From: a virus
Length of the DNA: 27,999 nt
Direction: 5' to 3' (one strand)
Virus record (IMG/VR): IMGVR_UViG_3300006350_000167
Location: 1 to 27,999 of that record
Shown here: piece after piece, positions 1-27,999 of the stretch
Numbering within the stretch: the stretch's first letter is position 1
Layout of the letters: each line of letters starts with the position of its first letter
Notes under the pieces: generated by a model
Seen by the model: the letters and a program-made list of their open reading frames with translations, nothing else
Told to the model about the DNA's origin: nothing
The model's database searches: none
Position numbers and translations under genes: made by a program

Positions 1-3000
1 TCTGTAACTTCCTTAACTGTTCCTTGTGCAAGAGTTGTTTTCTGATACACACGAGCACCAACTGTATAAGGTAAAACACTGTTTACAGCATTCATTACTA
101 GTTGTAACTCTGGTTGATATGTTTGTATTGGATCAGTTCTCAATACAATCTTACCACCATTACCTAAGTCCAGAGGAGCATTGTTCAACGTTAATTGACT
201 TACAGTACTAGTATCGAATACCGCTTTGTAAATAACAAATTTAAGATCTTCATACTGGTCAGCAGTCCAAGTAGATGCGTTTTGTGATTTGAATAACACA
301 CCTGCATATGGTTGCTCAGATATTGTCCTGTTACCTGATTTTTCTACGTCACCCATTCTGGATATCCAGACTTGATATTCGTTAGAGTCAGATAGTAATA
401 CAAAACAATATTCAACCGACTGTTTAATATAAACAGGAGATCTAAATGTAAATCTTGTTGGAATCAATCCACTTTCTGATATCTCAACATCTGCAGCGTT
501 AACTGTAATATCAGATAAAGGTAAGATATCTTTAGTAGGATTACCATTCTCCATAGTCCTTATCTGCATAGAAAGAGGAATGTTGGAGTCCTTAGTCCTA
601 AAGAATAGATCAACAGAGGTAATCATAATACCACCTTCTTCATCCACAATGAATGATTGTGCAAGAGGGTCATACCAACCAATCTGTCTAGTCTCAGTCC
701 TAGTAGAGTTTGTTAATACTCTTTCATCACTAACTGTGTCACGGACAATTTCAGCATTTCTAATTGCAAGAATGTTTTCTCTAACAGTCTGCAATGTACC
801 TGTTGCTCTGTATTCTACGTCAGCAGATGAGTCAACTGTGCCAGGTGTCCTTTCGTTTGAAGCACTAGTTGTCAATCTAATAGTCCTTGTACCTGTTGAC
901 CAACGTGGGTTGGAGTCAATTTTAGGAGATGGAATATAGAAAGTGCCTTTAAAGTTACCAACGTTATCAGTCAATAGACGACGGTCTTTAGCGTATGCAG
1001 CAGCACCTGATGTTAGACCTACAAGCAATTCACCAATTTTAATGTTACCTTGGAATTCACCGTTGGCAGTAGACGCCATCTCATCGACGTCAATATTTAA
1101 TATGTTGGTGTTAGATGCATATGATGAAGGTAATGTTGCAGCACCTGTACCATATGGTGTAGTTACATAAGCATCATCTGCTGCAGCAACTTTTATCTTC
1201 ACGCCACTCTCAATACCAACAACAGTCTCACCTACCACAAATGGTATTTGATTACTGTTATCAATCGTGCTGTCAGAAGGTTGGTTAAATGTATTAGCAC
1301 CTGGTGCAGTTACAACTTCGTTGATGATATTACTGTTACTACCTGTCTTGTTTAACTCAATTACTTTAGGTGTAATGTATGCTGTAATATCAACTCCATC
1401 AAAGAATGCATATACTCTAGTCCTTGGTTTCATTCTATAAACATCAAATGCAATGTTTCTAGATCTGATCCATGGGACAGCAGTCTGTGATAATATTGTG
1501 TCACCCATAGATTTTCTTTCAATCTTAGGTACAATTCTTGTCCTAATACCTTGTCTAGACTGATTCTCTGTGACTGCGAATGTGCGTCTTTCGTGAATAA
1601 ATTCAAGACCTTGATGTCTTGTGCCGACCCAAGTACCTCCACCACTATGACTACCAGTCCTGTTGATGATGGTATCTGTAGAGATTAAACTTTCTCCAAC
1701 CCAGTTAGTTTCCCAACCACCCCATTGGATAGGTGCAAAACCTGTATTAGGATCAATGTTTAACTCATTCTGTACTGATGAGAAATCTCCTTCTACATTC
1801 TCTACTCTAGCTGGAAGTCTATTTGTTTCGATCCAGTCGTCTGATGTAGGATTAAGATCAATACGCCCGATGAAAGTAAAGACGTTAAATGGGTTAACGT
1901 TCTCGGATCGCGAACAATAGGGCTGCTTAACGATTTCAACATCTGTATATGGTAGCATGCAAATGTTTGCAGGAGTTGTTGTAACATTAGTTGATTTTGT
2001 TTGGTTAATTTTTAGAGGGACATTCTGTGTAAAGTGAGAAGGTCTTAAGATTCCTTCTTTGAAATCTAGAGAGCATTTGTAATCTGCACTATTAACATCA
2101 CCAATCTTATGATCAGTAAAGTCATCTACAACAAAACCATTCTTTAATCTATCAAAACCATTCTCGTCATAAGAAGCGGTATTTTCTGCTTTAACTTCTA
2201 GTAAAGATAATGCAGTATAATATTCAACGTTGGTGAGACGTTTCTCCATATCACCAATGTCTTTCATCGTATAACGCTTGATGATTTCTTGGTTAATTGT
2301 TGAGTCACGCTCAGGTGTAAACATGTATGCTCTATGCTTCAATGTCGCTAGACACATAGCATTTTGCATATTGTCGGGTGGTTGTGGATCTTCGGAAGAA
2401 TTACCTTTAAGTAACTGTAACTTGTTATCGTGAGTTAGGAATAGTTTATCTGTCCTAGGTAGGTAATAATCAAAGTCACAACGGAATTCTGTTTCTGCCT
2501 TAGGAATATCAAACAATGTCGCTGCTGCTGCAGCACCTGCACCCTGTCCAGTAGTAGAGAATTGTCTTGCATCAAAGTCAAGAGTTGCACAAGTAACCTC
2601 GAAAGGACTACCAACTGTACCTTGTCCTGTTGCTAATTCACCAACTGCAGGTCTAAAGTCAATCTGATCTCTAACAGTTTGACTAGATCCTTTAAGTATA
2701 GGTGAAGGAATATCTGAAAATTCTATACCAGTATATGATTGACCAGAGAAATAATCTCCTGATGCTTCATGAATGAAGTAGTCAAACACTGCCATCAACT
2801 GTCTAGTTGGAGGAGTTGTGCCAGGTTTTCTTATTAGACGTGATACGTCATAGAAGAATGGGTTTTGTGCTTGATTTAATTCATATTGATTTGTGATAAC
2901 TTTAGATCCTTTTTCAACAGATCCGTCAGCATCATCAATAGTTGCAGTCAATACGTTATTATCAGTGTCTACACCTGTTACTGTTTCGCCAGGACTAAAC

Positions 3001-5732: not shown

Positions 5733-5734
5733 CG

Positions 5735-7270
5735 TTAGAATTCGATTACGACTTTGATATCCTCAATTTGGTCGCCCGCACGAGTGATTGGTCCTCTATT
5801 ATCTATGTAAATAATCCGACCGCTATTTGGTTGGATCTCTGGATCTGCATAACCGTTAGTAAATGCCATACCCAAATCATATTCAGTGTTGTTAATCACT
5901 CTGGTAGAGGATCCAGAGACGATAGGGAAGTTGATGTCTGGGTCACCTGATGTACCTGAGATAGATCCCACAACTGGGTTACCTCCATCAAACTCAGTCA
6001 AACTACCAGTAATCTCAGGGAAAATACCGTCGATTCTATTCTGGTAATACTTCAATACTTTTGTTGTGCTATTCCATGAAACAACACGACCTCTAGCAGT
6101 TACCTGCTGTCCACCAACTGTCCTAGATTGTGTTACGATCTCGTCAGTTGTGTAGTTACCTGTAAATGTAGGAGAGAATATAACTGCCTTTGTACCTGAC
6201 AAAGTTAATTCTGCAGTCAATTCATTTGTGCCATATCTAAATGGATTAAGTAACAAACCAATACGACGATAGTCGTTATCAGTTGGGAAGTCACCTGATC
6301 CCTCAGCGTATGTAAACTTGGTGTTGATCATTGTCCTATATCCACCTAACTCTGTGTCAGGTGCTGCACCATGACCTACAGATGGAGGAATGATAACTTC
6401 AACAGATGCACCAGATCCTGCTCCTGCTCCGATACCGTTGATCTCATCAATGATAACTGTCCCGAATGTATATCCTGATCCACCAGATGTAACAGTAGCA
6501 GTAACAAGTTTACCACCGTCAACCACTAGTGATACACGTCCACCAATACCGTCTCCTTTAATAGGGACGTTTTCGTAGGTGCCGTTGTTGTAACCAGTAC
6601 CTGAAGATCCGATAATAACCGTATCAATCTCTCCACCAACAGCATCAGAGATAACAGCAGTATCTTCCAACACTGGCATATATTCATTAGAGAAGAATTT
6701 TAAAACTTGTCCAACAGGAATAGTATAGAGATATTTCCAACGATAACCATCAGCAGTTGTGATGATAGATGTTGAAGTACCTGTAGGCTCAACAGTGGAA
6801 GGTTTTCCGTTAGGATCACCAGGAGACGTGCCGTTGAATATACACTTGTATACCTGATAAGATGAGTTAACAACATAGAAGTCTGCATCATAAAGTTTAG
6901 TAGCACCTGATGCAGCAGTCTTTGTAGCAGAATAGTCATGTCTATACATGTCATAGACGTAACCTAATCCACCAGTAGTTTGCTCAGGAGGAATCCAGTT
7001 TATTCTTCTTACAACTTGTATTGTGTCATTTGCTAAAACTCTCTTTAGGGAGATCATGTCAGAAAAGTTGTCAGCAAATTCCTGTAGCGAATCCGTTGGA
7101 TCGGGTGGGTCATTCTCATTATCCCAGCTTTGAGGTCTGCCAATGAATACATACAGTCTATCTCTAGATGCTCCTGCTGCTAGATCGGATTGAGCCGAGT
7201 CAGGACCTTCCAGAGATTTAATGAATCTCTTGGCAGTAAAAATTCTAAACTGGTCGGTTAGTAGTGCCAT
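5735..7270 (-). CDS. 8: gp8-like baseplate wedge protein
   Basis: This 511-residue protein is a homologue of T4 gp8, a dimeric component of each baseplate wedge that helps join wedges around the tail tube. Landmarks shared with T4 gp8 (recalled, not aligned) run in order: a PTDS segment near residue 60; YRWKYLYTIP followed by SNEYMPV near 175-200; RRIGLLLNPF near 340; and the C-terminal SGRIIYIDNRGPI then AGDQIEDIKVVIEF, which parallels SGEMIYMENRPPI and AMDQTEEINILFTF in T4. T4 gp8 is 334 residues; the extra length here comes largely from a Gly-rich beta module at about residues 213-297. The ATG at 7270 has GGGAGA 11 nt upstream and a late-promoter-like box before that. The gene stops with TAA 2 nt before the DUF4815-type gene. 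It is the best functional anchor in the window. Confidence 0.9.
   Translation of the reverse strand: MALLTDQFRIFTAKRFIKSLEGPDSAQSDLAAGASRDRLYVFIGRPQSWDNENDPPDPTDSLQEFADNFSDMISLKRVLANDTIQVVRRINWIPPEQTTGGLGYVYDMYRHDYSATKTAASGATKLYDADFYVVNSSYQVYKCIFNGTSPGDPNGKPSTVEPTGTSTSIITTADGYRWKYLYTIPVGQVLKFFSNEYMPVLEDTAVISDAVGGEIDTVIIGSSGTGYNNGTYENVPIKGDGIGGRVSLVVDGGKLVTATVTSGGSGYTFGTVIIDEINGIGAGAGSGASVEVIIPPSVGHGAAPDTELGGYRTMINTKFTYAEGSGDFPTDNDYRRIGLLLNPFRYGTNELTAELTLSGTKAVIFSPTFTGNYTTDEIVTQSRTVGGQQVTARGRVVSWNSTTKVLKYYQNRIDGIFPEITGSLTEFDGGNPVVGSISGTSGDPDINFPIVSGSSTRVINNTEYDLGMAFTNGYADPEIQPNSGRIIYIDNRGPITRAGDQIEDIKVVIEF
6382..6635 (-). other. Gly-rich beta module inserted in gp8
   Basis: Residues about 213-297 of the gp8 homologue read as a separate module: GTGYNNGTYENVPIKGDG, then a GGSGYT turn, then GAGSGASVEVIIPP. 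T4 gp8 has no comparable stretch in my recollection. The same module, with YYNVPIDGDGEGG, GKGYT and GSGAALAVVIPDEG in the same order, occurs in the giant protein (about 24580-24880). It is probably a surface-exposed insertion on the wedge. Confidence 0.65.
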
Positions 7271-7281
7271 TTAGTTATAGG

Positions 7282-7287
7282 TCTCCC
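7282..7287 (-). promoter_or_regulatory. Ribosome binding site of gp8 homologue
   Basis: On the minus strand the sequence is GGGAGA, 11 nt before the ATG at 7270. It is the clearest Shine-Dalgarno in the window and supports this start over internal ATGs. Confidence 0.6.
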
Positions 7288-7293
7288 ATACTT

Positions 7294-7301
7294 TATTTAT
7301 G
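7294..7301 (-). promoter_or_regulatory. Possible T4-type late promoter
   Basis: The 37-nt gap between the 614-residue protein gene and gp8 contains CATAAATA on the minus strand, 7 of 8 matches to the T4 late consensus TATAAATA. It lies 23 nt before the gp8 ATG, so a start shortly downstream would leave a very short leader carrying the GGGAGA site. A single 8-mer in AT-rich DNA is weak evidence; its placement in one of only two real intergenic gaps is what makes it worth listing. Confidence 0.4.
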
Positions 7302-7307
7302 GAGTTT

Positions 7308-10624: not shown

Positions 10625-10649
10625 GGTAGGTAGTTTTCTACAGTGTTAT

Positions 10650-18200: not shown

Positions 18201-21200
18201 TTAATATAACCAACTGCCTCTTCTGCAATGTAGTCTCTATTCTTCCAGATTAGTGCACCTGCATCTCTAAATCTATGTCCAGTAGGAGCAAGGACGTCAG
18301 CAATATAATCACCCAATACATCTAACTGAGATTCTACTTGAGTTGTGCCAGTAAGTGCATGTGGGACACGAAGTTTAGTTGTGTATGTGCCAGTGAGGGT
18401 AGTATCAGATGTATTAATTACATACTTACAAAGTTTTACAACTTCACGCCATGCATATAGAGTTTGTAGTAACTCTTGACCAATATACTCAATTTCACCA
18501 CCTCTTGTGCGGTAGAAACGAGCAGTAACGATAACGTTATAGTTACCACCTTCTCTTAGATCTTTTACAATAGCAGGTAAGATATAATCTCTAGTATCTC
18601 TAATACAAACATTTGTGCCACTCATTGTGCCACCTGCACCGTAAGTATCGCCAGGTATTGTAAAGTCAGGGAAGAATGCCTGCATGATTCCAACTGCTTC
18701 CTCAGCAAGCCAATCACGGTTAATATCAATTATATCTGCAGCGTCTCTATAAATTTCTCTACCAAGATCTACCTCCTCAATAGTAATACGCTTATTGAGA
18801 TAATCAATAGATTTAAGTGTAGATGATGAATTGGTTAAACCAGTAAGTGTAGCATATACCTCAGTTGTAGAAACTACAAATGGTGCTTCTCCATTAATAC
18901 CAAGGACAATATTACTATTAGTAAAGTCAGGATCTGAAGAAGGAGTAATTGTAGCACCTTCATAATCACCAACACCTTTCTTAACGATAAGATTATCAAG
19001 GTTACCTATAAACTGTTGACCGTTAGAAACATCTTTACCAAGAGCAAATCTTGCAAACTCGTATGTGTTTGTATCGCTGTAAGTTGTTTGCTGCACACCA
19101 TCAATATAGATTGAAGTTACAGCAGACTTTCTAACAACAGCAATATGATGCCATCTAAGTGCAATAAGAGTATTTGAAGATGTAATAAGAGTGCTGCTAC
19201 CATTAGCGAGGATAAGTTGACCACTTCCATTCAATACTAGACTTAGACCTGTTGAGGTTGTTTGTGGACGTCTCATATCAAAGATAATTTGATTACCTGA
19301 TATTGCGTCAGCACGAAGTCTCATCTCAATAGTAAAGTCACCTGTGCCAAACTTAAAGTCATTTCTTTCTGTCTGGACAATCTGTCCAGTGTTAGGAATT
19401 CTAACTGATTTTGTGTTATTAGAAAGAGCTGATAATATTGTAATATCATCTATGGTGCAATTAGAATTAACTAGAGTAGAGTTAGTTACATATTCTCCAA
19501 TACTGAATGTGCCAGTAGCGTTACCACCATAGATCCACTTAAGACCATTGTTAGATCCTTTAATAGGAGCAGATGCGTTAGTTGTAACACCTTTAAGGTT
19601 TTCGCCAGGTAAGAATAAACCTCTTGATGGATCTTTAAATGCATATTTTGTAACACGAAGAGTTTCACCTGCACTATAACCACCATCAGTGATTGTCCTT
19701 TCAGTAGGAGCAGTCCTTGTGGCGTGTGCCATATTGTTGTTGGTATACGCAGTTGTGTATACACTCATAAGTGTATTAAATGCAGATACAACAGTTGCAC
19801 AACCATTAGTATCTGAATTAACAGGTGTTAGATCTGTGTCAAACCACTGTCTCTTTCCATGTATTCCTGTGGCAGCAAATCTAGGATAGAAGTAATCACC
19901 AAATGTCTTAGATACAAAGTGTAAGTAGTGTAATCTTACTGTGTCTCCATTAGATAATGTTGGAGTATAACTTTCTGCAAGTTGAATAGAAAGTGTGCCT
20001 CCTGCAACGTCATAAGTTGCTAAAGCAATGTCTGCAGTGTTATCTAATGTTACTGCGTTACTTGTAGCACTTACAAATGTATGTGTATAGTTACCACCTG
20101 TGATAACAGCACCAAATGCTGCACTTTGGAAGACGTGCTCATACTGACCTTGTGCAGTTGCAACACCTACGTTTACAGTAATAGTAGTAGATGTTGTATC
20201 TGTAATTGTTATTGCAGTATCATAGTATGGGTCAGTTGTCCTTGGATAAGCATGATCAGTTAGATAGTTATCTTGAGAGCATCTAAAGACTAATGATTCT
20301 TGTGCAATTTTAATAGCAGTGCCTGTCTCTAATTTGTGCTCACCAATAGTCATTACCATCACACCGCTAGATGGACTGTAGGTGATAGCAGTAGGAGTAA
20401 ATGTTATCTCAGGAGATGCACCAACGTTAACTGTAATAGATGTGTTTGCAACAACAGATTTAACTTCTAGAGGTTTGTTATAATATGGATCTTTTCCTGC
20501 TCTAGGATATGTCTTGTTAGAAGATCCACCATCCATTGTGCAATTAAATGTCAAACTATTAGCAGCGATAGAAACAAATCTACCTGCAGTAATACTATGA
20601 GATCCAATAGTTAATACTAAGTCACCAGTTACAGGATTATATGTTGCACCAGTTGGTGTAAATTGTGGTGGTGCCACAACCATCTTACCGTTACCAACAT
20701 AAGTTAATGAGTCACCTGCATTCAGTGTGACAGTTGGGACTGTCACATCAAATGTCCTAGTGGCGTTGTTTACGTTAGCAACTGTAAATGTATCTGTGCC
20801 GTTTTGTATGACACTACCTGCAATAGTCTGTGCCTCAGCGTATATTCCATTAACTTGTGATGCAGTTGTAGGAGAGTCATCATAAGCAATAGCATAAGTT
20901 GCAGCATCATATACTCTACTGTTTCCACCATACTTAATATCATAAGCAATCGCTTCAATTACATCTTTGATATCGTCTGTGCAATCAGCATCAGTTTGGT
21001 GAGGAGTAAATCCTGGATTAGCGGTCTTATAAATGTGAAGTGCTTCTGCAGCAATAAATTCTTTGTTATTAAGAAGAAGGTTTGCACCATCAATATTGAG
21101 ACTACCTTGAGGCACTGGATCAGCAAATACACCAGTAATCTTAGGACCTCCTGTGCCCTCAGATGTATATGAAGTTGTGCCTGTAAGGTTATGTGTATTT

Positions 21201-24200
21201 TCTGCAGTAACAGAGTGGATAACAATGTCAGTTAAGAATGTAATATTCTGTTGAATATCAGCACAGTTACTTAAACTCTGAGCATTACCAGATGAGTAAT
21301 TAGGATCATAAGTATGTGCAGGAGCAGATCCACCGTAAGTTATAGGATCGTTTAAGTTATATCCTTCGTTACCAATATCTTTTACATAGAGCAAGTTGTT
21401 GATAGCATAAAACATTGTGTCTCTTGCTTTCAATATTGCAGTCTGTGATTCAGCAACTTCACCATAGAATCCGTTAAGAATAAAGTTACCAGTAGTATCA
21501 AAATATTGCTCTGCAAAGTTTTGAGAATTAAACTCACCACCTGAGCTTAAATCATCAGCAATAGCATCTATGAATAATCCTAAGTCACGACGACATTTTT
21601 CTTGACCTATAGAAGTTGTAGGCTCAACTTCAGTAGGAATATCATTTAGATTACCTGCAGCTATTGCTTCGTTTTGCCATGTCCAGATAGTAGTAATTGC
21701 AGACTGCACGTCGCTGCAATTATCAGTAGTAGCGTTATCTGTATTGCTGCCTGGAGTCGCATACGGAGATCCTGGTGATGGGTCTGCTGTGATTGAGAGG
21801 TCTGCATAATAAGTTGCTTCGTCGGTTGAATTAGTTGCACTGAATACACCAGTTAACTGGTTTGTAATAGCAGCAAGACATAAGTCTTTTGCTTTCTCTA
21901 CAATGAATAATAACTCAGCACTTGCTCTACTATAGTTAAGTGTAGTTGTATCTGAGAAGTATTCATTAATCCACTTCAAGGAGTATTGGTTACCACCTGA
22001 GTGAATGTCTAATGCAAGAGATTCTATCCATAGTCTAACATCATCTAGGTAACCTTGCTTGTCTCCTGCAGAAGTGCCAGTAAAAGCTGTTTTTTGTAGA
22101 TCATATGCTCTTAAAGATATTGCATCAATATTCTTAAGAATCATACGATATGCATCTCTAAATCTTGATGTTGTGTTAGTCTGCACATCGCCAGGATAAT
22201 AGAAATCAGGATGCTCTACTGCAACCCAACGCTCTGCTCTGTCAATAATTTCTTGTCTATTTCTACCAATACTTCTAGCACCGTCATTTGCTCTGTTACC
22301 TGCATTACCTACAAGGTTTGCATAGAATATTGCTTTGTTTCTTAGAGCATCACCTTTAGCAAATGTGCCACTAGAAAGATTATCGTATTCAATCTCAGTG
22401 CTTCTAACTTCTTCAAAGTCTAAGAAATCTTCATTGATTCTAGCATCTGGATCGTACAATTGTACTGGTGTAATACTTGACTGAGAAATATCATCAAGTA
22501 TGACATTAGGATTCTGGATAGCAACAAGTCTTTCGTAGATAAGACCGAAGAATGTAGATCCTCTGTTAATGATTAGAGTGTCAACAGGTTGACCAGTATT
22601 AGGATCAAGATATGGACTAATGAATGTAATCTGAGCAACAATCTTAGAATTACTTGAGTAGATATATTCATTCAATCTAATATCAAAGATACCAGTTTCA
22701 TATCTTGAAGTACCTGAAGTCTTACTTAAGAGTAATTCATCAGTTGCATTACCTTGTGAATCAAGGTTTGTTTCTTCAATGATTGCTATGTCACCGTCAA
22801 AGTTAGTGATTGTCTCTTGGAATTTAAAGAGACTTTCAGTGTTGATAAGATCTACACTTGCTACAACAGCATTGAATAATGTTGTCCTCTTAATTATTTC
22901 ACTGACTGTGAAAGGTCCGTCAGTAATGTTAATAACATCAATATGGAATGTCCCTGAGTCAATAACAGTTGCATATGCATCAGAAGACTCACCATTAACT
23001 TGCTGACCCATCTCAGGGAATATACCCTGTGGGTTTGTTAATGTAATTCTGTAAACTGGTATAGTTGTAAATCTAACAGCTCTATATCTAACCTGTGATG
23101 CTGCTTTTGGTGGCTCAGCAAATACAATCTGATTACCAACAATTTGATATGATGTGCCAGGTGCTTGGATAACACCATTCAATGTAATCATCAACTGATT
23201 ACCTTTAACAATTACACCTTCACCTTCTACAGTGATTGGGAATGATTTTAATATTCCATCGAAATCATCAGATATATCATCAATCTTCTTAACGATAGAA
23301 GTTAAGATTTCCTCAGATGATGTTAATCTTCTACTTCTGAATAATACCTCTGTATTGTTGTAGTCAGTATATACTGGCTCAGCAGCACCAAATGATGTGA
23401 TCTGGTTTACGTTAGTATACTCATTAATATTAACTTCTTTAATAAATTCTGTGCCAACCTTTCTACCAGATACGTCCTTACCACCAGTTAGTGATAACTG
23501 ACCAAACATCTTAAATCCTGTAGGATGGTTGTTGTCTAATACTTGCTTCTTCCATCTTGTAATAGGAATCTCAGATGTAATAACATAAGAGAATGACTGA
23601 TAGAAGAAACTATCTTGAATCTTCTGGACAATCTCAGATGGTTTACCAACATCATCGATGAATCTACCAGGTGTTTGTGTAATTGAGTCAATATTCAATA
23701 CACCACGAGCAATGCTCAAGTTATCGATAATACCAGATGCTTTAGAAACCTCACCTGATACTTTTTCACCTTGGACAAAGTTACCTGTGTAATCAACAAC
23801 CTTAAGAATCTTAGGACCTATTTGCCAACCAGTGTTAGTAGAAACAAAACCTGTTGCAGATGCTTGCTCAGGACTATTACCTTGGAAAATTTTCTCACCT
23901 TCTAGGAATCTAGATGTTGCAACAACAGCAGTAGCAGTACCTCCAAACACCTCAGTTAAGAGAGTTTGTCGTCCCTCACCCTGTGTTAGGAAGGTGATAA
24001 AGTCACCAGACTGTGCGGCTTGTAACGTTAATCCGAAGCGTAATTGATCAGATTCTAACTGATCAGCAATAGCATAGTATATCTGACCATCAACTAATTG
24101 AGTCAAACCTGCACTACTTGGTTTTGGTAGTATACCAGTTGTAGATCCTATACTATCAGCACGCAACTGAATAGCAGCACCTGTTGTAATACCATGTGGG

Positions 24201-27200
24201 AAGTTAAACTGTAGATAGTTAAGATCTAAGTTAACAACATAGTTAAATTCTGATTTTAGAGTTACAGTTGGCTCAGATGAATATCCTTGACCTGGATTCT
24301 TAATAAGAATCTCATTCAAACGATTGTTTTTAATAACCGCTTCTGCCTCAGCACCTGATCCACCACCACCTTCGATTACAACTGCAGGAGCAGATGTATA
24401 ACCAGAACCTGGATCAGTTATGGTAATCTCAGTTAGTATTGAAGTATTAAAGAGTTGTAGGTTAACAGGGAATGTAATCTCAGGACGTAGAGTGTAGTCA
24501 TGTGAATATCCAAATCCAAACTCATTGTTTTTAAGTCTCTTAATCTTACCGATATTTCTACCAGTTAGGAATACAGATGCACCACTACCTTCATCAGGAA
24601 TTACAACTGCTAATGCAGCACCAGATCCTGCAAGTTGAGGTCCTAAGATACCTGTGATGCTATCAACGTCAATACTTGCAGTTGTATAACCTTTACCTGG
24701 ATCTGCAACAGATACATCTGAAATTGTGCCTGATCCAATCTCTTCATCAAGAGTAACAGTTATAGTTGCTAAACCACCTTCACCATCTCCATCGATAGGC
24801 ACGTTATAGTAAACGCCAGGTTGATATTCTGTACCTCCTGAGGTTATAGTAATACGCTCAATCTGTCTGAATGATGCAATATCAGATATAATAGGTAACT
24901 TCTGATAGAATCCACCTGGTGATACTAGTTTAATAGTATTGATAGGTCCTATTGCTTTTACAGACGTTGTTGAATAGAATGAGAATGGATTGCCGTTTTC
25001 GTCATCTTGGACTTCAGCAGATGAGGTTTCTGGCTCAAGTAGTAATGGGAATTTGAATTCAGTATTATTGACAATTTGTGATATAGTAAATGTGCCATCA
25101 TAAGGTGTCTTAATAATATCAATAAATGAATTTGCACCAACAGGAGACATTGATCCAATCCTAGATGGATCAAAGTAGTAAGAAATATTAGTTACATTAC
25201 CAATAGCAGAGAATTTAACATATGGTCTTAGACCTTCTGCTTGGACACCAGGTGTCCCAACTCTAGTAATATTATTGAAAGAGTATTCCAACTTATACTG
25301 GTTATCCTGTGCAAATGACAAATAGTAACCGAAGTTAGATACATCACCAACATCAAAGACATATTGATGCTCTCTAATAAATGTTAGAGATGGATGTTTA
25401 GCAAATATATTAACATTGCTTATACTGTTTTGATTGAATACAGGATCACCTGCAGCAGTATTTCTTAGTCCAAATACAAATTCTCTACTACCAAATACTT
25501 CACGAATAAAGAATGACCCGTTGTATTCTGTAGTATTAAATCCTTCAGTAAATATAATTTCATTAGCTCTGTAATTATGAGGTGTGACAGATGTTGCATA
25601 AACAAGATCTGATCTTGCATCACTAACTTTCTTAATATCTTTCTTAAGAGTTGTAGTTAACTCAACTTCTTTAACAGATGCAAATCCAGTTACCTTAACA
25701 ATCTTATATGCATCATTGCCATCATCATCAACAACTATATTTCCAGAGTTAATAGCAATAACATCGCCAGGTATGTAAGATGATGCAGGTTGTACCTTTC
25801 TAATCTTAACTGAGTATTGTCCATCACTGTATTGTTGGAATCTAGCATAGTCAGATAGTGGTTGCTCTGTAGATTTCCATTCCCATGTTACGCCACCATC
25901 AGATGCTGTGCCAGTTGTATGTACTGGTGCAATATTACCTGATGTACCTGCAACTGTTACTTCATATATGTTACGCTGCCAATAAACTTGATATCCTACA
26001 GGGAAATTAACTCCTTGATCCCAACGATCCATATCCATTCCTCTGTATTGAGGTTTGGGGTATGGCTCAGTTTGAATGTCAATATCAAACTCACCTGCAT
26101 TTCTAATAAACACCCATGTAACAGCACCGTCACTTACAGCACCAGTGGTGTGTGTTGGAGGAGTTACACCAGATGTGCCACCTGACTGTGCCTCATATAT
26201 TTTCTTAGCATAGTATACTCTGTCAGCAGTAGCATATGCAGTGCCTGTGACCCAAATATTTTCTGCCTCAACACCAATAAATGTTTGCTCAGGTATTATG
26301 TTTATATCTGTTGCTTCTGTAGATCTTAATAGATCAGTAGTATTGAATGTGCCGAAGATCTTACCAATCTTATACTTATTACCTAGACCAGGATTTGTTG
26401 TAGTGCCTACAGGAGTTTCTACAATCGTGCCGTATGCTTGGACTACACCAAGAGCATTGTATTGCTGAAGGATTGCACCTTTAGTAAACTTAACATCTTG
26501 GTTAAGAGTATATTCAAGAATGTTATCAATCTTACTGTAAGTTGCATCTTTAATATAGAATTTGGGCACAACGTTTGCAGTAACAAACATCTTCTGACCA
26601 TTCTTAACAGGTATAGTAGAGGACTTAGATGCAAACTGCTCTCTGTTGTTTGTCCATGTGTACGTTTGTACTGGTGTGTATACACTGGGCGAATCTGAGA
26701 AGTCAAGTAGTTGTAGACCACCTGCTCCGACATCCCACTGATCAATAGAAGGTAAACCTGCATCTGACCATGTGCCAGTTGTCCACTCACTGATAGTAAG
26801 ATTAGAATAGTTAGTAGGTGTAGTTAATGTATATGTGCCTCTTCCAGAAGTATGTGCTCTGTCAATCTTAACAGCAACCACGTCACTGATTTCATGTGAT
26901 AGTGGGTATTTGGTTGTAGGAGGAGTAAAGGTTGACTGAAACTCATCAAGTTTAGATATAATCCAATCGTCAATATGACCAATAAATGCCTTAGTTGCAA
27001 CTGATGGATCAGTGCCACCTAATCCAACAGACGCCATATTAACGTCAATTAGAGTTTGATATGTAACTGCAAGTGTGCCATCATAGTAAACATTGATTTC
27101 CCATACACCTGATCCAGTGTTTTCTTTAACAAGTGCAATATGATGCCATGCTGCAGCAGCAAAGTTGCCCCAGTAAGTAGTCTCTGTAGAAGAAGCAACT

Positions 27201-27999
27201 ACACTACCATTTACTTCAAGAATAATTTTACCGAAGTTAGGATCGGATGCGATACCCATAAGGTATGCAGAAACACCAGAGGTGCCATTCACTTCAACAG
27301 TGTCAAAGAAGTGTGGAGTATTACCTGCTGCATATGCAGTGGTATTCATACTAAACCATGCTGCAGTAGTCCAGTCTTGACCTTCCCATGCTAAACCAGA
27401 TGCAGTAGCACGGTTTGCTGCTTGGAATTTGAGTGATCCAGTGCCATACTTATAATATGATGTATCTACCTCAGCATCGGCAGGTGTTTGAATTGTAAGA
27501 GTAGATATAGTCTGTTTAGTTGTATCATAGTCTAAATCAGCACTATCATCGAATCTATAGACTGCAAGTTGATTAGGAATCAATCTTTCAGCAATAGTGA
27601 TAATATCACCAGAATTATCAACTGTAGATGTCTTACCAACTTGTCCAACAGAATCAGTTGTTTCTATTAATGATTCTGCTTTTATTGTGCCATCATACTT
27701 AAGTGAAGATACAATATTAGTTTTTCTGTCTTCGTCATAATCTATGGCAGCAGTTATGACAACATCTCCAAATACATCGACATGTAGACCAGTATTCTTA
27801 ATAGAGACGTAATTTCCTTGAGGAGTTAATGATTTACGGAATAACCAAGGTTTTGGTAATGTAGCACCTTGCTGATTCGTATAAGTTGCATTTGTATCTC
27901 CAAGAGGAATTTTACCAACTTGGATTCTTTCAAATTTACCATTTGCATTATTAAAGACATCATATAAGAAAAATACGTCATTATACTCGTCAATAGTAA
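12227..27999 (-). CDS. Giant modular virion structural protein, N terminus beyond window
   Basis: The frame is open from the right edge to a TGA at 12227-12229: at least 5,256 codons (about 570 kDa) without the N terminus. A TTG at 27583 could be read as a start, but the same frame continues upstream without a stop (for example DVFGDVVITAAIDYDEDRK then TNIVSSLKYDGTIKAESLIE), so it is internal. Modules from N to C are: LamG-like domain; two chitin-binding-like modules; Gly-rich and GE-type beta modules; NGxxQxPG module; helical GGN repeats; two YPR repeats; second LamG-like domain; more GGN repeats with three YPR repeats placed inside one of them; another GE-type array; two more NGxxQxPG modules; Ig-like domain. 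No transmembrane segment or enzyme motif was noticed. It is probably a very long tail-associated fibre or scaffold that binds glycans; this is inference from the modules. Confidence 0.88.
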   Translation of the reverse strand, partial: TIDEYNDVFFLYDVFNNANGKFERIQVGKIPLGDTNATYTNQQGATLPKPWLFRKSLTPQGNYVSIKNTGLHVDVFGDVVITAAIDYDEDRKTNIVSSLKYDGTIKAESLIETTDSVGQVGKTSTVDNSGDIITIAERLIPNQLAVYRFDDSADLDYDTTKQTISTLTIQTPADAEVDTSYYKYGTGSLKFQAANRATASGLAWEGQDWTTAAWFSMNTTAYAAGNTPHFFDTVEVNGTSGVSAYLMGIASDPNFGKIILEVNGSVVASSTETTYWGNFAAAAWHHIALVKENTGSGVWEINVYYDGTLAVTYQTLIDVNMASVGLGGTDPSVATKAFIGHIDDWIISKLDEFQSTFTPPTTKYPLSHEISDVVAVKIDRAHTSGRGTYTLTTPTNYSNLTISEWTTGTWSDAGLPSIDQWDVGAGGLQLLDFSDSPSVYTPVQTYTWTNNREQFASKSSTIPVKNGQKMFVTANVVPKFYIKDATYSKIDNILEYTLNQDVKFTKGAILQQYNALGVVQAYGTIVETPVGTTTNPGLGNKYKIGKIFGTFNTTDLLRSTEATDINIIPEQTFIGVEAENIWVTGTAYATADRVYYAKKIYEAQSGGTSGVTPPTHTTGAVSDGAVTWVFIRNAGEFDIDIQTEPYPKPQYRGMDMDRWDQGVNFPVGYQVYWQRNIYEVTVAGTSGNIAPVHTTGTASDGGVTWEWKSTEQPLSDYARFQQYSDGQYSVKIRKVQPASSYIPGDVIAINSGNIVVDDDGNDAYKIVKVTGFASVKEVELTTTLKKDIKKVSDARSDLVYATSVTPHNYRANEIIFTEGFNTTEYNGSFFIREVFGSREFVFGLRNTAAGDPVFNQNSISNVNIFAKHPSLTFIREHQYVFDVGDVSNFGYYLSFAQDNQYKLEYSFNNITRVGTPGVQAEGLRPYVKFSAIGNVTNISYYFDPSRIGSMSPVGANSFIDIIKTPYDGTFTISQIVNNTEFKFPLLLEPETSSAEVQDDENGNPFSFYSTTSVKAIGPINTIKLVSPGGFYQKLPIISDIASFRQIERITITSGGTEYQPGVYYNVPIDGDGEGGLATITVTLDEEIGSGTISDVSVADPGKGYTTASIDVDSITGILGPQLAGSGAALAVVIPDEGSGASVFLTGRNIGKIKRLKNNEFGFGYSHDYTLRPEITFPVNLQLFNTSILTEITITDPGSGYTSAPAVVIEGGGGSGAEAEAVIKNNRLNEILIKNPGQGYSSEPTVTLKSEFNYVVNLDLNYLQFNFPHGITTGAAIQLRADSIGSTTGILPKPSSAGLTQLVDGQIYYAIADQLESDQLRFGLTLQAAQSGDFITFLTQGEGRQTLLTEVFGGTATAVVATSRFLEGEKIFQGNSPEQASATGFVSTNTGWQIGPKILKVVDYTGNFVQGEKVSGEVSKASGIIDNLSIARGVLNIDSITQTPGRFIDDVGKPSEIVQKIQDSFFYQSFSYVITSEIPITRWKKQVLDNNHPTGFKMFGQLSLTGGKDVSGRKVGTEFIKEVNINEYTNVNQITSFGAAEPVYTDYNNTEVLFRSRRLTSSEEILTSIVKKIDDISDDFDGILKSFPITVEGEGVIVKGNQLMITLNGVIQAPGTSYQIVGNQIVFAEPPKAASQVRYRAVRFTTIPVYRITLTNPQGIFPEMGQQVNGESSDAYATVIDSGTFHIDVINITDGPFTVSEIIKRTTLFNAVVASVDLINTESLFKFQETITNFDGDIAIIEETNLDSQGNATDELLLSKTSGTSRYETGIFDIRLNEYIYSSNSKIVAQITFISPYLDPNTGQPVDTLIINRGSTFFGLIYERLVAIQNPNVILDDISQSSITPVQLYDPDARINEDFLDFEEVRSTEIEYDNLSSGTFAKGDALRNKAIFYANLVGNAGNRANDGARSIGRNRQEIIDRAERWVAVEHPDFYYPGDVQTNTTSRFRDAYRMILKNIDAISLRAYDLQKTAFTGTSAGDKQGYLDDVRLWIESLALDIHSGGNQYSLKWINEYFSDTTTLNYSRASAELLFIVEKAKDLCLAAITNQLTGVFSATNSTDEATYYADLSITADPSPGSPYATPGSNTDNATTDNCSDVQSAITTIWTWQNEAIAAGNLNDIPTEVEPTTSIGQEKCRRDLGLFIDAIADDLSSGGEFNSQNFAEQYFDTTGNFILNGFYGEVAESQTAILKARDTMFYAINNLLYVKDIGNEGYNLNDPITYGGSAPAHTYDPNYSSGNAQSLSNCADIQQNITFLTDIVIHSVTAENTHNLTGTTSYTSEGTGGPKITGVFADPVPQGSLNIDGANLLLNNKEFIAAEALHIYKTANPGFTPHQTDADCTDDIKDVIEAIAYDIKYGGNSRVYDAATYAIAYDDSPTTASQVNGIYAEAQTIAGSVIQNGTDTFTVANVNNATRTFDVTVPTVTLNAGDSLTYVGNGKMVVAPPQFTPTGATYNPVTGDLVLTIGSHSITAGRFVSIAANSLTFNCTMDGGSSNKTYPRAGKDPYYNKPLEVKSVVANTSITVNVGASPEITFTPTAITYSPSSGVMVMTIGEHKLETGTAIKIAQESLVFRCSQDNYLTDHAYPRTTDPYYDTAITITDTTSTTITVNVGVATAQGQYEHVFQSAAFGAVITGGNYTHTFVSATSNAVTLDNTADIALATYDVAGGTLSIQLAESYTPTLSNGDTVRLHYLHFVSKTFGDYFYPRFAATGIHGKRQWFDTDLTPVNSDTNGCATVVSAFNTLMSVYTTAYTNNNMAHATRTAPTERTITDGGYSAGETLRVTKYAFKDPSRGLFLPGENLKGVTTNASAPIKGSNNGLKWIYGGNATGTFSIGEYVTNSTLVNSNCTIDDITILSALSNNTKSVRIPNTGQIVQTERNDFKFGTGDFTIEMRLRADAISGNQIIFDMRRPQTTSTGLSLVLNGSGQLILANGSSTLITSSNTLIALRWHHIAVVRKSAVTSIYIDGVQQTTYSDTNTYEFARFALGKDVSNGQQFIGNLDNLIVKKGVGDYEGATITPSSDPDFTNSNIVLGINGEAPFVVSTTEVYATLTGLTNSSSTLKSIDYLNKRITIEEVDLGREIYRDAADIIDINRDWLAEEAVGIMQAFFPDFTIPGDTYGAGGTMSGTNVCIRDTRDYILPAIVKDLREGGNYNVIVTARFYRTRGGEIEYIGQELLQTLYAWREVVKLCKYVINTSDTTLTGTYTTKLRVPHALTGTTQVESQLDVLGDYIADVLAPTGHRFRDAGALIWKNRDYIAEEAVGYINALYTKTINSVPVQFLTIPNNTKCLRDLKDHVLPAVIGDIIMGGNAETQKVIDSYLNSDNEILYITDELNPMIDAIHYTEMLAKKAINNLLMSPGETSAALGVSATYQDEYYSPQYTSRLAFRDETITYDPKQFDQTRTGSNKFLDAADLIDDNARIIAKEAVSTMNDLSKYGSFIVPTGNPVDCEDDVVDILAGVAHDLRHGGNSETYRIGKLYVRSDGGIKHIEGETEASKAVFKIARDMAILTIRNGFGRDSLPGHNEVTFQLSSYERNGASNNRIYAARAIERNIRFIAEEAVRRGLDQYPSLSINGGSSALWTKEFTPTDVNYNSTNGKMVVTIGKHDIQRGDTVRVTPLGITLRCSQDNYATDHPYPRTTDPVYEKNILVEDISQTTITINVGASPQGQQYTHQFQSALAGSIKWGDDFGGQKLTPTNITYNSATGDMVMTIPDHVFNVGNRLMIAPNSLTFTCSQDNNASNHSYPRTTDPYYNKTVAVTAVGTGTANITNASYQETTGILTITSAGHGLVTGNRIKIATDGIRFTCTQDGNSTNHDYPRSTDPANNKWLIVTKIDDDNIAVNVYPSQVGQQYPHTFVSATSGALIKQSGTVTVNVGASPAGQQYTHAFVSADHESIVAAGSIDCVHDVADVLAWHTFNLEYGGDNMVALGAGYYVENGVIQHIAGVVNEVTWITNTARDIAKQIYQGTTPSRHATNGAEFVPITDIEDKWVTGSGNMSAVSDSDVDTEVNRLISIVTDTINDPTGSDTTTYPNGLSGSFTPTLPNIWPTKYSGDVPLRDVSVTFDNQATQWNQTCPTQAAAINTLMAILEGGIDAAVAGNGLTYYGTTVTETAPTSPTSNLYNAGKCYDVKLEIEKKYKVMYETLSGGSTSNKMAAKMILFNKPAIKKRAYDQTVAFYPSYAGDADFADQIIHAVIYDLVTGGNAEAFDSISNWFDGDGNMIVYTGIVRTHLIYHMTRVREYCKSIIYAPDGAGWIPYVADPGLYIPALRTEWNQEATEFNMDSSINVFEFALEQSKFSTEAKTTWIANTDVHNRHVVYNEGFDWNTDPALVSLTPTVRAGYDRAEFRVRIYRANFFRRGDVVQYIPASGSTLGGTTGQSLYYILNAEATFFEIGAVPTHDGRFRALEFDDTAASSHIFQVLVRSGINRATTTYGDPNVETPYSGGFLDADVLYGTQSDVFSEIGSQSFNEASVRETFLYVKLGNPSDPGVSKFTNGENVFKSGDATAVGKILQQNYNTGNTEIILRVVDKTGPNWAVGDTLVGLDSSTTADITAITDRLLLNVDLGAYAVGDKIFKKADNTEADIVFYDNKSGAIIGNDGGRVVMDVETIQSGWETGDIIYGSLTDYILDVKGIYQPGGVAEVNDIIHGTEVIELDLGSTFIEAGLAATFEVGDEVSMLIGTVIKNPGLTAIVTKYQAPNNNVSPVIPHKMWIGNVQPVGTGAAVSELTNSGIFIGKFDIGTNFPVIYSNVTNVTQNTYTSYAKISKIEQQGITARIWVEQAVGDFYDNMTIKGDDGWSAAVSDARTLVGRVDRYFRGFDGVQQNFSLSVENGQAYFPDPAGHMLIFVNGILQPPGAINAYTAFSDKIQFTEPPEIGSEFIGYYVGKLRQLDDIGFEFDSLRSSFNLKLDGIFYSLTLTEGVSSATILPENNILVSLNGIIQEPGVSYEIVGSRIIFAEVPRAGATFVGFSYIGSDADVISATVVPPIEAGDQLDIEGEEFPREVALIESSNSLITFEYTGSVKGRNAEALANITSGQIISATVTNPGDGYTSKPNVEIISSTGFDGRLVPMMGIQRIDVKAPGGGYSLPIVAALTTVEDDFVTPTGSPVNNGFDIYAGEGIDQQGNPIVVDPGLIRININPVNVTVNQGQTATFTVVADFVRASDGQLNTTTLNYQWQKKDYGTTVWSNIIGGNQAAYPTNFTTQQDDGDEYRVAITAAGATPVYSFSAILSVQIGSTVISNFTPDQIFDDA
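12280..12575 (-). other. C-terminal Ig-like domain of the giant protein
   Basis: The last ~110 residues read NVTVNQGQTATFTVVADF, then LNYQWQKKDYG, then DGDEYRVAITAAG and ILSVQIG: an Ig-like beta sandwich with the core Trp in YQW. It resembles the C-terminal domain of the following YHYH protein in strand order and in the position of the YQW. Confidence 0.7.
13060..13560 (-). repeat. Two NGxxQxPG beta modules
   Basis: Two adjacent modules share LIFVNGILQPPG ... IQFTEPPEIGSEFIGYY and LVSLNGIIQEPGVSYEIVGS, then IIFAEVPRAGATFVGF. A third copy lies near 23080-23240 (MITLNGVIQAPGTSYQIVGN, then IVFAEPPKA). The pattern LNGxxQxPGxxYxIxGxxIxFxExP is a recurrent building block of phage fibre and tail proteins. 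Confidence 0.7.
13900..14620 (-). repeat. Array of GE-type beta modules
   Basis: Several short consecutive modules have a hydrophobic residue, Gly-(Asp/Glu)-x-(Val/Ile), a Gly and a small-residue turn: FTNGENVFKSGDATAVG, WAVGDTLVGLDSSTTAD, YAVGDKIFKKADNTEAD, WETGDIIYGSLTDY and FEVGDEVSMLIGTV. The same module type appears near 23730-23930 (FLEGEKIFQG, FVQGEKVSGEVSKASG), in the 614-residue protein and in the DUF4815-type protein. Confidence 0.55.
15250..18755 (-). repeat. Helical GGN repeats, copies 4 to 8 (protein level)
   Basis: About five helical units of roughly 110 residues each. The first helix is like DAADIIDINRDWLAEEAV, the second starts at a Cys or equivalent (CIRDTRDYILPAIVKDLREGGN), followed by a Tyr-rich segment, G-x-I-x-(H/Y)-I and a third helix. 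Second-helix ends are KDLREGGN, GDIIMGGN, HDLRHGGN, FNLEYGGD and YDLVTGGN. In copy 7 the first helix (near 17280-17390) is separated from the second (near 16280) by about 1 kb coding for three YPR beta repeats. I do not recognise a named family. Confidence 0.75.
16320..17260 (-). repeat. YPR beta repeats, second cluster (three copies plus half-repeat)
   Basis: Three units of about 90-105 residues: a T-P-T-x-(I/V)-x-Y-N opening, MVMTIPDHVFNVGNRLMIAP, a CSQDNNASNHSYPRTTDPYY signature, then TVNVGASPxGQQYTHxF. Signature variants are CSQDNYATDHPYPRTTDP, CSQDNNASNHSYPRTTDP and CTQDGNSTNHDYPRSTDP. The GQQYTHAFVSA tail is partly duplicated at the end. The Cys and the YPRxxDP are the most fixed positions. 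Confidence 0.75.
18955..19420 (-). other. Second LamG-like (concanavalin-type) domain
   Basis: The segment begins SVRIPNTGQ, continues FKFGTGDFTIEMRLRAD, has a central LRWHHIAVVRKSAVTSIYID and ends FIGNLDNLIVKKGVGDYEG. The F-x-F-G-T-G-D-F-T-I-E start and W-H-H-I-A-V-V-R-x-x-x-x-x-x-Y-I-D-G core are hallmarks of LamG-type jelly-roll domains, which commonly bind glycans. Spacing to the end (IGNLDNL) is normal, so the domain looks intact. Confidence 0.8.
20100..20680 (-). repeat. YPR beta repeats, first cluster (two copies)
   Basis: Two units matching the second cluster: FTPTGATYNPVTGDLVLTIG with CTMDGGSSNKTYPRAGKDP, and FTPTAITYSPSSGVMVMTIG with CSQDNYLTDHAYPRTTDP. Each ends in SITVNVGASP or TITVNVG; the second continues with GQYEHVFQSA. 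They follow helical copy 3 directly. Confidence 0.75.
20880..22300 (-). repeat. Helical GGN repeats, copies 1 to 3 (protein level)
   Basis: Three earlier units of the helical repeat. Copy 1 has IGRNRQEIIDRAERWV then LDIHSGGN. Copy 2 has CRRDLGLFIDAIADDLSSGG. Copy 3 has NNKEFIAAEALHIYKTANPG, then CTDDIKDVIEAIAYDIKYGG. Between them are Cys-led helices (NCSDVQSAITTIWTWQNEA near 21690, NCADIQQNITFLTDIVIHS near 21250) that recur at GCATVVSAFNTLMSVYTTAY (near 19775) and TCPTQAAAINTLMAILEGG (near 15745), probably another part of the same unit. Confidence 0.7.
24250..24880 (-). other. Gly-rich beta modules of the giant protein
   Basis: The N-terminal part (24580-24880) carries YQPGVYYNVPIDGDGEGG, then DPGKGYT and GSGAALAVVIPDEG, the same order as the insert in gp8. 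The second part (24250-24430) has DPGSGYTSAPAVVIEGGGG, then SGAEAEAVI and NPGQGYSSEPTVTL, the same unit as in the 614-residue protein. Confidence 0.65.
25868..26256 (-). other. Two chitin-binding-like modules
   Basis: Two copies of a ~50-residue module are seen: WVTGTAYATADRVYYAKKIY, then GTSGVTPPTHTTGAVSDG and VTWVFI; and WDQGVNFPVGYQVYWQRNIY, then GTSGNIAPVHTTGTASDG and VTWEWK. The W-x-x-G-x-x-Y/F-x-x-G-x-x-V-x-(Y/W)-x-x-x-x-Y-x pattern resembles small chitin or cellulose binding modules (CBM5/12 type) found on phage tail proteins. A GTSGxxPPxHTTG turn precedes the final strand in both. Glycan binding is the expected role. Confidence 0.6.
26945..27575 (-). other. First LamG-like (concanavalin-type) domain
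   Basis: The segment runs from AVYRFDDSADLDYD through YKYGTGSLKFQ, DWTTAAWFSMNTTAY and AAWHHIALVKENTGSGVWEI to AFIGHIDDWIISK. The W-H-H-I-A-L-V core and the final G-x-I-D-D-W are typical of LamG_3-type jelly rolls. With the second LamG near 19 kb it gives the protein two likely glycan-binding sites. Confidence 0.8.

Follow-up and report, generated by a model that had tools for sequence, protein, structure and literature searches.

Avoidance of GAAC/GTTC and GTAC in a cyanophage contig

We analysed a stretch of viral DNA comprising the whole IMG/VR record IMGVR_UViG_3300006350_000167 (27,999 bases, guanine-cytosine content 38.7%; in the following the window), in which the tetramers GAAC/GTTC and GTAC are strongly avoided, and we relate this avoidance to two overlapping genes, gp059 and gp060, of the related cyanophage P-TIM40 (Kyanoviridae, Libanvirus; host Prochlorococcus NATL2A). 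Window bases 209–24994 align with P-TIM40 at 84.9% identity, with 99% of bases 1–25000 being covered. The window codes for six virion genes, all on the minus strand and named from their open reading frames (ORFs) and the P-TIM40 annotation: a structural protein representing the start of the gp104 (DUF4815) equivalent and running off the contig end (3..5732; named by position from annotation and alignment), the T4 gp8-like baseplate wedge subunit used for the codon-level comparison below (gp103 equivalent, also aligned; 5735..7270), a hypothetical protein (gp102 equivalent; 7308..9152), the T4 gp10-like baseplate wedge tail fibre connector (gp101 equivalent; 9149..10624), a virion structural protein (gp100 equivalent; 10650..12230) and a giant virion structural protein with an open 5' end (gp099 equivalent; 12227..27997). 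A scan of the window for transfer RNA genes found none.

An earlier note on the window, made from the letters alone, had claimed GAAC/GTTC to be nearly absent with eight sites and GTAC to occur about 29 times; our counts are nine and 30. The residual sites, given on the plus strand, are GTTC at 19..22, 136..139, 183..186, 1899..1902 and 15180..15183, the last one overlooked before, and GAAC at 1912..1915, 9137..9140, 14977..14980 (formerly placed one base off) and 24405..24408. Compared with 300 shuffles of synonymous codons in the six ORFs, by which neither the proteins nor the codon usage of any gene is altered, the contig is depleted over its full length (1..27999) of both GAAC/GTTC (9 vs 205.7±11.3; z −17.5, lower than for any other of the 136 tetramer classes; minimum among the shuffles 174) and GTAC (30 vs 115.6±7.5, z −11.3). 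Second-order Markov expectations are 193.6 for GAAC/GTTC and 114.3 for GTAC, resulting in ratios of 0.05 and 0.26; ratios below are likewise those of observed to expected counts. As the note had proposed, GAAC/GTTC is low on the coding strand in either orientation (5 vs 104 and 4 vs 102 in the shuffles) and in all three codon phases, and the words it had called common are all raised compared to the shuffles (GATC 165 vs 109, GTCC/GGAC 154 vs 93, and GTGC/GCAC). No equal depletion was found for the unrelated tetramers GATC and CAAG, the latter reaching 0.86 of its Markov value. The description of the avoided set as GTWC captures the low GAAC/GTTC and GTAC but leaves out the RGCY words AGCT (z −10.2), AGCC/GGCT (z −6.7) and GGCC (2 vs 6.6) as well as CCGG and GCGC (0 each, ~8 expected), which are also low. 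As a separate observation, AAAA/TTTT is strongly under-represented in the window (166 vs 379, z −14.0).

A codon alignment of gp8, comparing the window to 24 relatives with normal GAAC and restricted to identical residues, shows the avoidance at the level of single codons: the window keeps the GAAC/GTTC of these relatives in 0 of 274 comparisons, which are not independent of each other, compared to 51% among the relatives themselves. GTAC is kept in 28% compared to 53%, and eight control words deviate in both directions (e.g. CAAC/GTTG 71% vs 52%, CAAG/CTTG 16% vs 39%). Mutational or codon bias acting without selection by a nuclease, e.g. deamination of methylated cytosine in GTTC, could draw on the methyltransferases encoded by the relative P-TIM40. 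However, the window would contain 206 GAAC/GTTC according to the codon-preserving shuffles, relatives with the same residues keep these words in about half of the comparisons, and the rise of neighbouring words in P-TIM40 is even and not confined to GTTT/AAAC (AAAC 1.21, GAAG 1.34, GAAT 1.27, CAAC 1.28), rendering such a bias scarcely credible as the cause. The avoidance of GAAC/GTTC and GTAC in the window is real.

The same depletion extends over the whole genome of P-TIM40 (GAAC/GTTC 104 vs 1240 expected, GTAC 136 vs 668). The residual GAAC/GTTC of P-TIM40 is clustered in sheath, portal and capsid genes, with 21 of the 104 sites lying in the 10 kb at 120000-130000. Counting 69 of 80 IMG/VR loci found via gp8 (11 loci below 9,000 bases were dropped; one later count left out loci below 4,000 bases), we observed three groups of GAAC/GTTC ratios, with 15 relatives at 0.05–0.15, ten at 0.22–0.32 and 44 at 0.85–1.13. 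Low GAAC is mostly accompanied by lowered GTAC (0.05–0.50 in the 15 lowest). Host DNA sampled around psbA is normal in GAAC/GTTC (Prochlorococcus 1.10 and 0.99, Synechococcus/Cyanobium 0.91), and the avoidance is therefore a trait of some phages and not of their hosts.

The gp059–gp060 gene pair

In P-TIM40, gp060 (gp62 of Syn9) is an N6/N4 DNA methyltransferase (PF01555, E 3.9e-40), and gp059 (gp61 of Syn9; PHROG 11812) is an unannotated ORF of ~200 amino acids (aa) lying just upstream of the methyltransferase gene and overlapping it. Three of 40 records contain gp060 at 72–100% identity, i.e. P-TIM40, Syn9 and the contig of the IMG/VR locus L065, with GAAC at 0.08, 0.24 and 0.29, respectively; eight further records of the 40 have distant gp060 relatives only, and 19 other phage records sampled show GAAC at 0.82–1.20 in 10-kb stretches. 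Within 50,697 phage records, gp059 is present in 17 and gp060 at >60% identity in the same 17, besides 689 more gp060 matches at <60%, and in 68 of 80 IMG/VR loci found via gp060 the methyltransferase gene is immediately preceded by an ORF from the gp059 cluster. Four phages chosen by the presence of this module before counting, over 15–20 kb each, all avoid GAAC (S-MbCM6 0.19, S-H35 0.15, S-RIM4 0.10, S-MS29 0.18) and GTAC as well.

For 22 complete cyanomyovirus genomes, namely P-TIM40, 20 public genomes and one long IMG/VR record, GAAC/GTTC amounts to 0.08–0.25 in all seven with gp059 and to 0.93–1.10 in all 15 without it. When all P-TIM40 ORFs of at least 60 aa were compared to these genomes by blastp, gp059 alone was found in 7/7 carriers and 0/15 others, a distribution having a probability of 6e-6 if the genomes are taken as independent; the next-best ORF, 62 aa in length, reaches 6/7 and 1/15. 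The distribution of gp060 at 76–100% identity equals that of gp059, homologues of 25–27% identity in seven further genomes being set aside. P-RSM6, which is sister to P-TIM40 plus the IMG/VR genome, has neither gp059 nor the avoidance.

These data bear on the suggestion of the earlier note that a restriction or similar DNA-targeting system drives the avoidance and should be looked for in hosts. We agree that selection by a DNA-cutting enzyme of restriction type, acting on both orientations, explains the data best; its placement in the host does not agree with the avoidance tracking a phage gene pair. A GTWC-specific restriction enzyme encoded by Prochlorococcus or Synechococcus, with gp060 serving in antirestriction and gp059 doing something else, would be in line with phages avoiding sites of host enzymes, as described in PMC6286503, and a phage methyltransferase could well have such a role. 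Yet NATL2A is host to P-TIM40 (0.08) as well as to P-RSM6 (0.93) and P-SSM4 (1.10), and WH8102 to S-H35 (0.20) as well as to S-ShM2 (0.98) and S-TIM4 (1.04). A gp059 profile matched none of 400 sampled host-family genomes, a search run without a positive control and not extended to other enzyme families. Taken together with the seven-to-none association in the complete genomes and the predicted fold of gp059 itself (see below), this makes a host enzyme an unlikely driver.

A more specific host system, Dnd phosphorothioate restriction, would fit the hierarchy of the depletion, as its motif is GAAC/GTTC with GTAC as a minor one: PMC9521924 gives GAAC/GTTC as phosphorothioate sites in Salmonella Cerro 87 and GpsTAC as a third motif, and the window and P-TIM40 show ratios of 0.05–0.08 for GAAC/GTTC and 0.20–0.26 for GTAC. 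However, DndC (TIGR03183) was found in none of eight genomes and in none of the 400 sampled host-family genomes, with control genomes matching only below the cut-off, and the avoidance goes together with a phage gene. We set Dnd aside on account of the missing DndC matches in the 400 genomes and regard it as very improbable.

The protein encoded by gp059 has the appearance of a nuclease. In 43 homologues sharing 16–86% identity with the first one, D90, E99 and K101 are invariant, which we read as the D…E-x-K pattern of PD-(D/E)XK nucleases, and so are T55, T59, K60, G88, G114, N115, K121, W157 and G189. An AlphaFold2 model of gp059 (predicted local distance difference test, pLDDT, 88.9; predicted template modelling score, pTM, 0.86) has its best structural match in NaeI (Z 10.1, root-mean-square deviation 3.7, 153 residues aligned), followed by DpnI (7.7, 3.5, 135), SwaI (7.5, 3.9, 147), BglI (7.3, 4.7, 183) and SfiI (7.2, 4.2, 167), and 49 of the 50 matches listed are restriction enzymes or related nucleases. 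The model thus predicts a restriction-endonuclease fold for gp059, and with a nuclease active-site motif, this predicted fold and an adjoining methyltransferase the pair shares three features with type II systems.

Proposed specificity and function of the module

The putative recognition site of gp059 is read from the depletion, which is clear for GAAC/GTTC, partial for GTAC and, in some subclades, extends to GATC. We assigned the IMG/VR module loci to subclades ourselves, keeping L245 in the 13-locus group below although its upstream ORF is unclustered. The main subclade (34 loci) shows pooled ratios of 0.10 for GAAC (each locus 0.00–0.25), 0.23 for GTAC and 0.95 for GATC, and L232/L233 show 0.13, 0.34 and 0.91. 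GATC joins the avoided words in a 238-aa subclade (5 loci; GAAC 0.09, GTAC 0.21, GATC 0.13) and in a GNKTS-type subclade (13 loci; 0.27, 0.34 and 0.28). Another subclade of six loci has GAAC 0.33, GTAC 0.84 and GATC 1.01, and a last one of three loci 0.70, 0.58 and 0.38. The avoided set shifts with the endonuclease subclade, as expected if the endonuclease sets the target. The GTWC motif holds only approximately: in complete genomes, its GAAC/GTTC part coincides clearly with the module; the GTAC part is less bound to it because GTAC is lowered in several module-free phages too, and GATC is avoided as well in some subclades.

We considered a full motif GWWC in which Dam methylation spares GATC. 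A dam homologue was found in 14 of 14 complete phage records (in S-PM2 in pieces), and GATC avoiders have it as well, i.e. the G421 record containing locus L243 (GATC 0.36) and L276 (GATC 0 of 22 expected; match cut at the contig end). GATC avoidance follows the endonuclease subclade and the Dam idea is not supported; Dam-insensitive enzymes in the GATC-avoiding subclades are possible.

We consider it likely that the lineage of the window has a type II restriction-modification module of its own, composed of gp059 as an endonuclease recognising GAAC/GTTC and of gp060, and that the corresponding sites have been purged from its DNA; the window's own genome presumably contains the module. According to this model, gp059 would recognise GAAC/GTTC and probably GTAC as a lesser site, and nuclease and methyltransferase, sharing a common target, would both be made in the infected cell. 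In sampled host DNA, GAAC/GTTC/GTAC occurs once per 121–125 bases and in the fifteen other cyanophages once per 75–97 bases, compared to once per 381–786 bases in the seven module carriers and once per 718 bases in the window. Because of these dense sites, host DNA with a site every ~120–125 bases would be cut to pieces and rival phage DNA would be fragmented too. The phage itself would survive as its sites have been purged by synonymous changes, with the window retaining about one in 720 bases, and the residual sites would be tolerated, presumably through methylation by gp060. Purging would lower the risk of newly copied DNA being cut ahead of its methylation.

Several points weigh against this interpretation. 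A methyltransferase protecting fully should make purging unnecessary, and GAAC/GTTC alone is an asymmetric site, which is unusual for a small homodimeric enzyme. GTAC is not specific for the module, ranging from 0.00 to 0.96 in genomes without it. By sequence, gp059 has no match in PDB, in Pfam above the cut-off, in NCBIfam or in PADLOC, and a Foldseek search with its model gave nothing under E 0.001 (best E 4.4e-3). The module lies outside the window contig; gp059 was found in none of 16 contigs related to the window, including 11 strong avoiders at 0.05–0.12, in a search lacking a positive control, and gp060 was not found in five avoider contigs (L014, L015, L016, L024, L071). These module-negative avoiders are fragments, many of which should stop before the module judging from the gene order of P-TIM40. 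Six loci (L215, L225, L227, L228, L234, L236) avoid only weakly (pooled GAAC 0.49, 0.43–0.93; GTAC 0.65; GATC 0.85); we set them apart from the main subclade, though at least some have the core motif in common with it. For all 40 loci together, GAAC amounts to 604 of 4,088, i.e. 0.15. Divergent module loci likewise show weak or no avoidance of GAAC (L238 0.80, L229/L230 ~0.6, L236 0.93), and three loci having a methyltransferase of 70% identity and no gp059 match in the stretch examined are nevertheless lowish (L253 0.51, L258 0.63, L259 0.56). Finally, on a tree of the 22 genomes built from a concatenation of three proteins, the label has to change twice, which corresponds to two independent events.

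Ten loci with a methyltransferase had been intended as a control lacking the endonuclease (pooled GAAC 0.77); we rejected this control as not clean, four of them (L252, L254, L255, L257) having a gp059-like match 8–10 kb away. Three loci with a methyltransferase of 58–61% identity and no gp059 match in the stretch examined have normal GAAC (L262 1.13, L263 1.13, L265 0.99).

The small number of events and the weakly avoiding divergent loci also speak for a hitch-hiking explanation, according to which the module marks two clades whose avoidance of GAAC has some other inherited cause, e.g. an unrecognised nuclease below 60 aa, a divergent gene missed by blastp or a shared host history. Against it stand the lack of any other P-TIM40 ORF of at least 60 aa with this distribution, the sister lineage P-RSM6 having neither gene nor avoidance, the addition of GATC to the avoided set in two endonuclease subclades, and the same link of word and enzyme in other phages with other enzymes, described in the following. 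In our judgement hitch-hiking is improbable, ranking somewhat below the host enzyme.

Other missing words, candidate enzymes and known systems

Phage S-SM2 provides an independent positive control, in which a missing word likewise goes with a restriction enzyme gene of the phage. CTAG is absent from its 191-kb genome (0 vs 290 expected; 368–631 in the other 21 genomes), and at L517:10147-10674 (+) it encodes a 175-aa protein matching RE_MjaI (PF09568, E 1.2e-46, 158.9 bits compared to a cut-off of 22.7, residues 10–174), with no match in NCBIfam or PDB. MjaI cuts CTAG. M.MjaI is listed among the homologues of a CTAG methyltransferase in PMC5867850.

Further words are missing from other genomes. 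GTAC is absent from S-SM1 (0 vs 491) and Syn1 (0 vs 574), which have in common an ORF of 199–203 aa (PHROG 6892; L424:1593-2192 and L497:15661-16272, respectively) that is also present in S-TIM4 and in the IMG/VR loci L549–L570. An IMG/VR copy with the same sequence as the S-SM1 protein has a match to a type II enzyme in PADLOC (E 9.5e-16), PADLOC being the only family support; the model is mediocre (pLDDT 74.7) and shows weak structural similarity to known proteins at best (highest Z 3.7, MvaI). The gene occurs in one more genome than lack GTAC, and most of the other carriers show only a partial lowering of GTAC (S-TIM4 0.32; 22 loci pooled 179 vs 650). S-ShM2 lacks TTAA (0 vs 586) and has a unique 168-aa ORF (L433:7030-7536) overlapping the helicase gene, which has a type II enzyme match in PADLOC (E 1.4e-22) and gave no significant match in Pfam, NCBIfam or PDB. 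ACG-2014d lacks TCGA (0 vs 309), and its unique, unmatched ORF of 198 aa, which immediately follows the gp057-type helicase (L459:9562-10158), is a candidate TCGA nuclease by its position; PADLOC gave nothing for four of the seven candidate ORFs of this phage, and for a fifth the scan was limited to Pfam and NCBIfam. PADLOC covered 7 of 8 candidate ORFs in S-ShM2, 9 of 37 in S-SM2 and 4 of 7 in ACG-2014d. CGCG is absent from P-RSM6 (0 vs 41) and P-SSM2 (0 vs 34).

The enzyme gene adjoins a gp057-type helicase gene in S-SM1, S-ShM2 and the IMG/VR genome and lies one small gene away from it in P-TIM40, 1.4 kb away in S-SM2, 1.8 kb in S-TIM4 and ~5 kb in Syn1, being further off in the Syn9 group as well; the locus at the helicase may be an insertion hotspot. 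No methyltransferase of the gp060 or gp074 type was found in S-SM1, Syn1, S-ShM2 and S-SM2, other types not having been searched. In these four phages the word is wholly absent, some sites remain where a methyltransferase accompanies the enzyme, and S-TIM4 fits neither pattern cleanly. In a broader model, T4-like marine cyanophages would have a swappable arsenal of small type II enzymes, located in several phages beside the conserved gp057-type helicase and often lacking a methyltransferase, each with its own four-base word erased from the phage genome, and these enzymes would degrade host and rival DNA in place of the DenA/DenB of T4; we see the chances for and against it as evenly balanced. 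If true, the missing words of a phage genome would read out the specificities of its nucleases, and universal or near-universal losses such as CCGG, RGCY and GCGC would mark further ones. CCGG is at 0.00–0.04 in 20 of the 22 cyanophage genomes, RGCY words are at 0.15–0.70 in all 22, and GCGC is at 0 in five Prochlorococcus phages; candidates from gene association for GCGC, CGCG and CCGG in these genomes may mark a phage clade only.

Avoidance of host-enzyme sites by phages, self-avoidance in bacteria and restriction-modification systems of chloroviruses are already known; we found no paper on the enzymes or the avoidance described here in open-licence literature searched with few terms. The systems of chloroviruses (e.g. 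CviAII, CviJI) resemble gp059–gp060 in belonging to a lytic virus with a DNA genome and a photosynthetic host, in having a small endonuclease beside a methyltransferase and in their short sites, and their packaged endonucleases are thought to degrade host DNA early, both as described in PMC7019647. They differ in their eukaryotic host and in the viral DNA being methylated, in some cases heavily, whereas cyanophages purge the site, and gp059 matched no described enzyme family by sequence in our searches. With type II PD-(D/E)XK enzymes such as NaeI, DpnI and EcoRV, gp059 shares the D…E-x-K triad and the predicted fold; sequence similarity to them is not found, and in contrast to these gp059 is carried by a lytic phage and has a putative specificity for GAAC/GTTC(+GTAC). 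Bacteria owning a type II system for a long time lose its sites as well, according to PMC4687349; here the owner is a lytic phage, complete genomes with a methyltransferase partner are purged to 0.08–0.25, and four phages with other enzymes have zero sites of 290–586 expected. The MjaI-family enzyme of S-SM2 is alike in combining an absent word with a present enzyme and differs in belonging to a known family not detectably related to gp059 and, as stated above for the types searched, in the methyltransferase. DenA/DenB of T4 are phage nucleases acting on host and not on phage DNA, which is a possible role here too; T4, however, protects itself by modified cytosine, whereas cyanophages purge their sites.

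Cyanomyoviruses lack denA, ndd and denB, for which a review suggests either less efficiency or an 'as yet un-described method' (PMC2984593). Because of this lack, a phage-borne restriction enzyme with self-purged sites is a concrete candidate for host-DNA degradation in cyanomyoviruses. If confirmed, a function would be assigned to PHROG 11812, which is annotated 'unknown function', and the usual inference that missing sites of a phage record host defences would change. The absence of words could become a method to find and assign restriction enzymes, as for CTAG with an MjaI-family match and for GTAC and TTAA with PADLOC type II matches.

Some minor observations concern further words and annotations. 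CATG is wholly absent in 14 of the relatives found via gp8 (L041, L042, L045–L050, L052–L054, L056, L057, L075; e.g. 0 vs 75 in L050), and partial avoidance is seen for AATT in S-RIM2 (0.31) and TGCA in S-CAM4 (0.32). In P-TIM40, three genes annotated as DNA endonuclease V/DNA endonuclease (L001:41758-42366, L001:43721-44437 and L004:22636-23247) match 2OG-Fe(II) oxygenase in Pfam and are likely misannotated.

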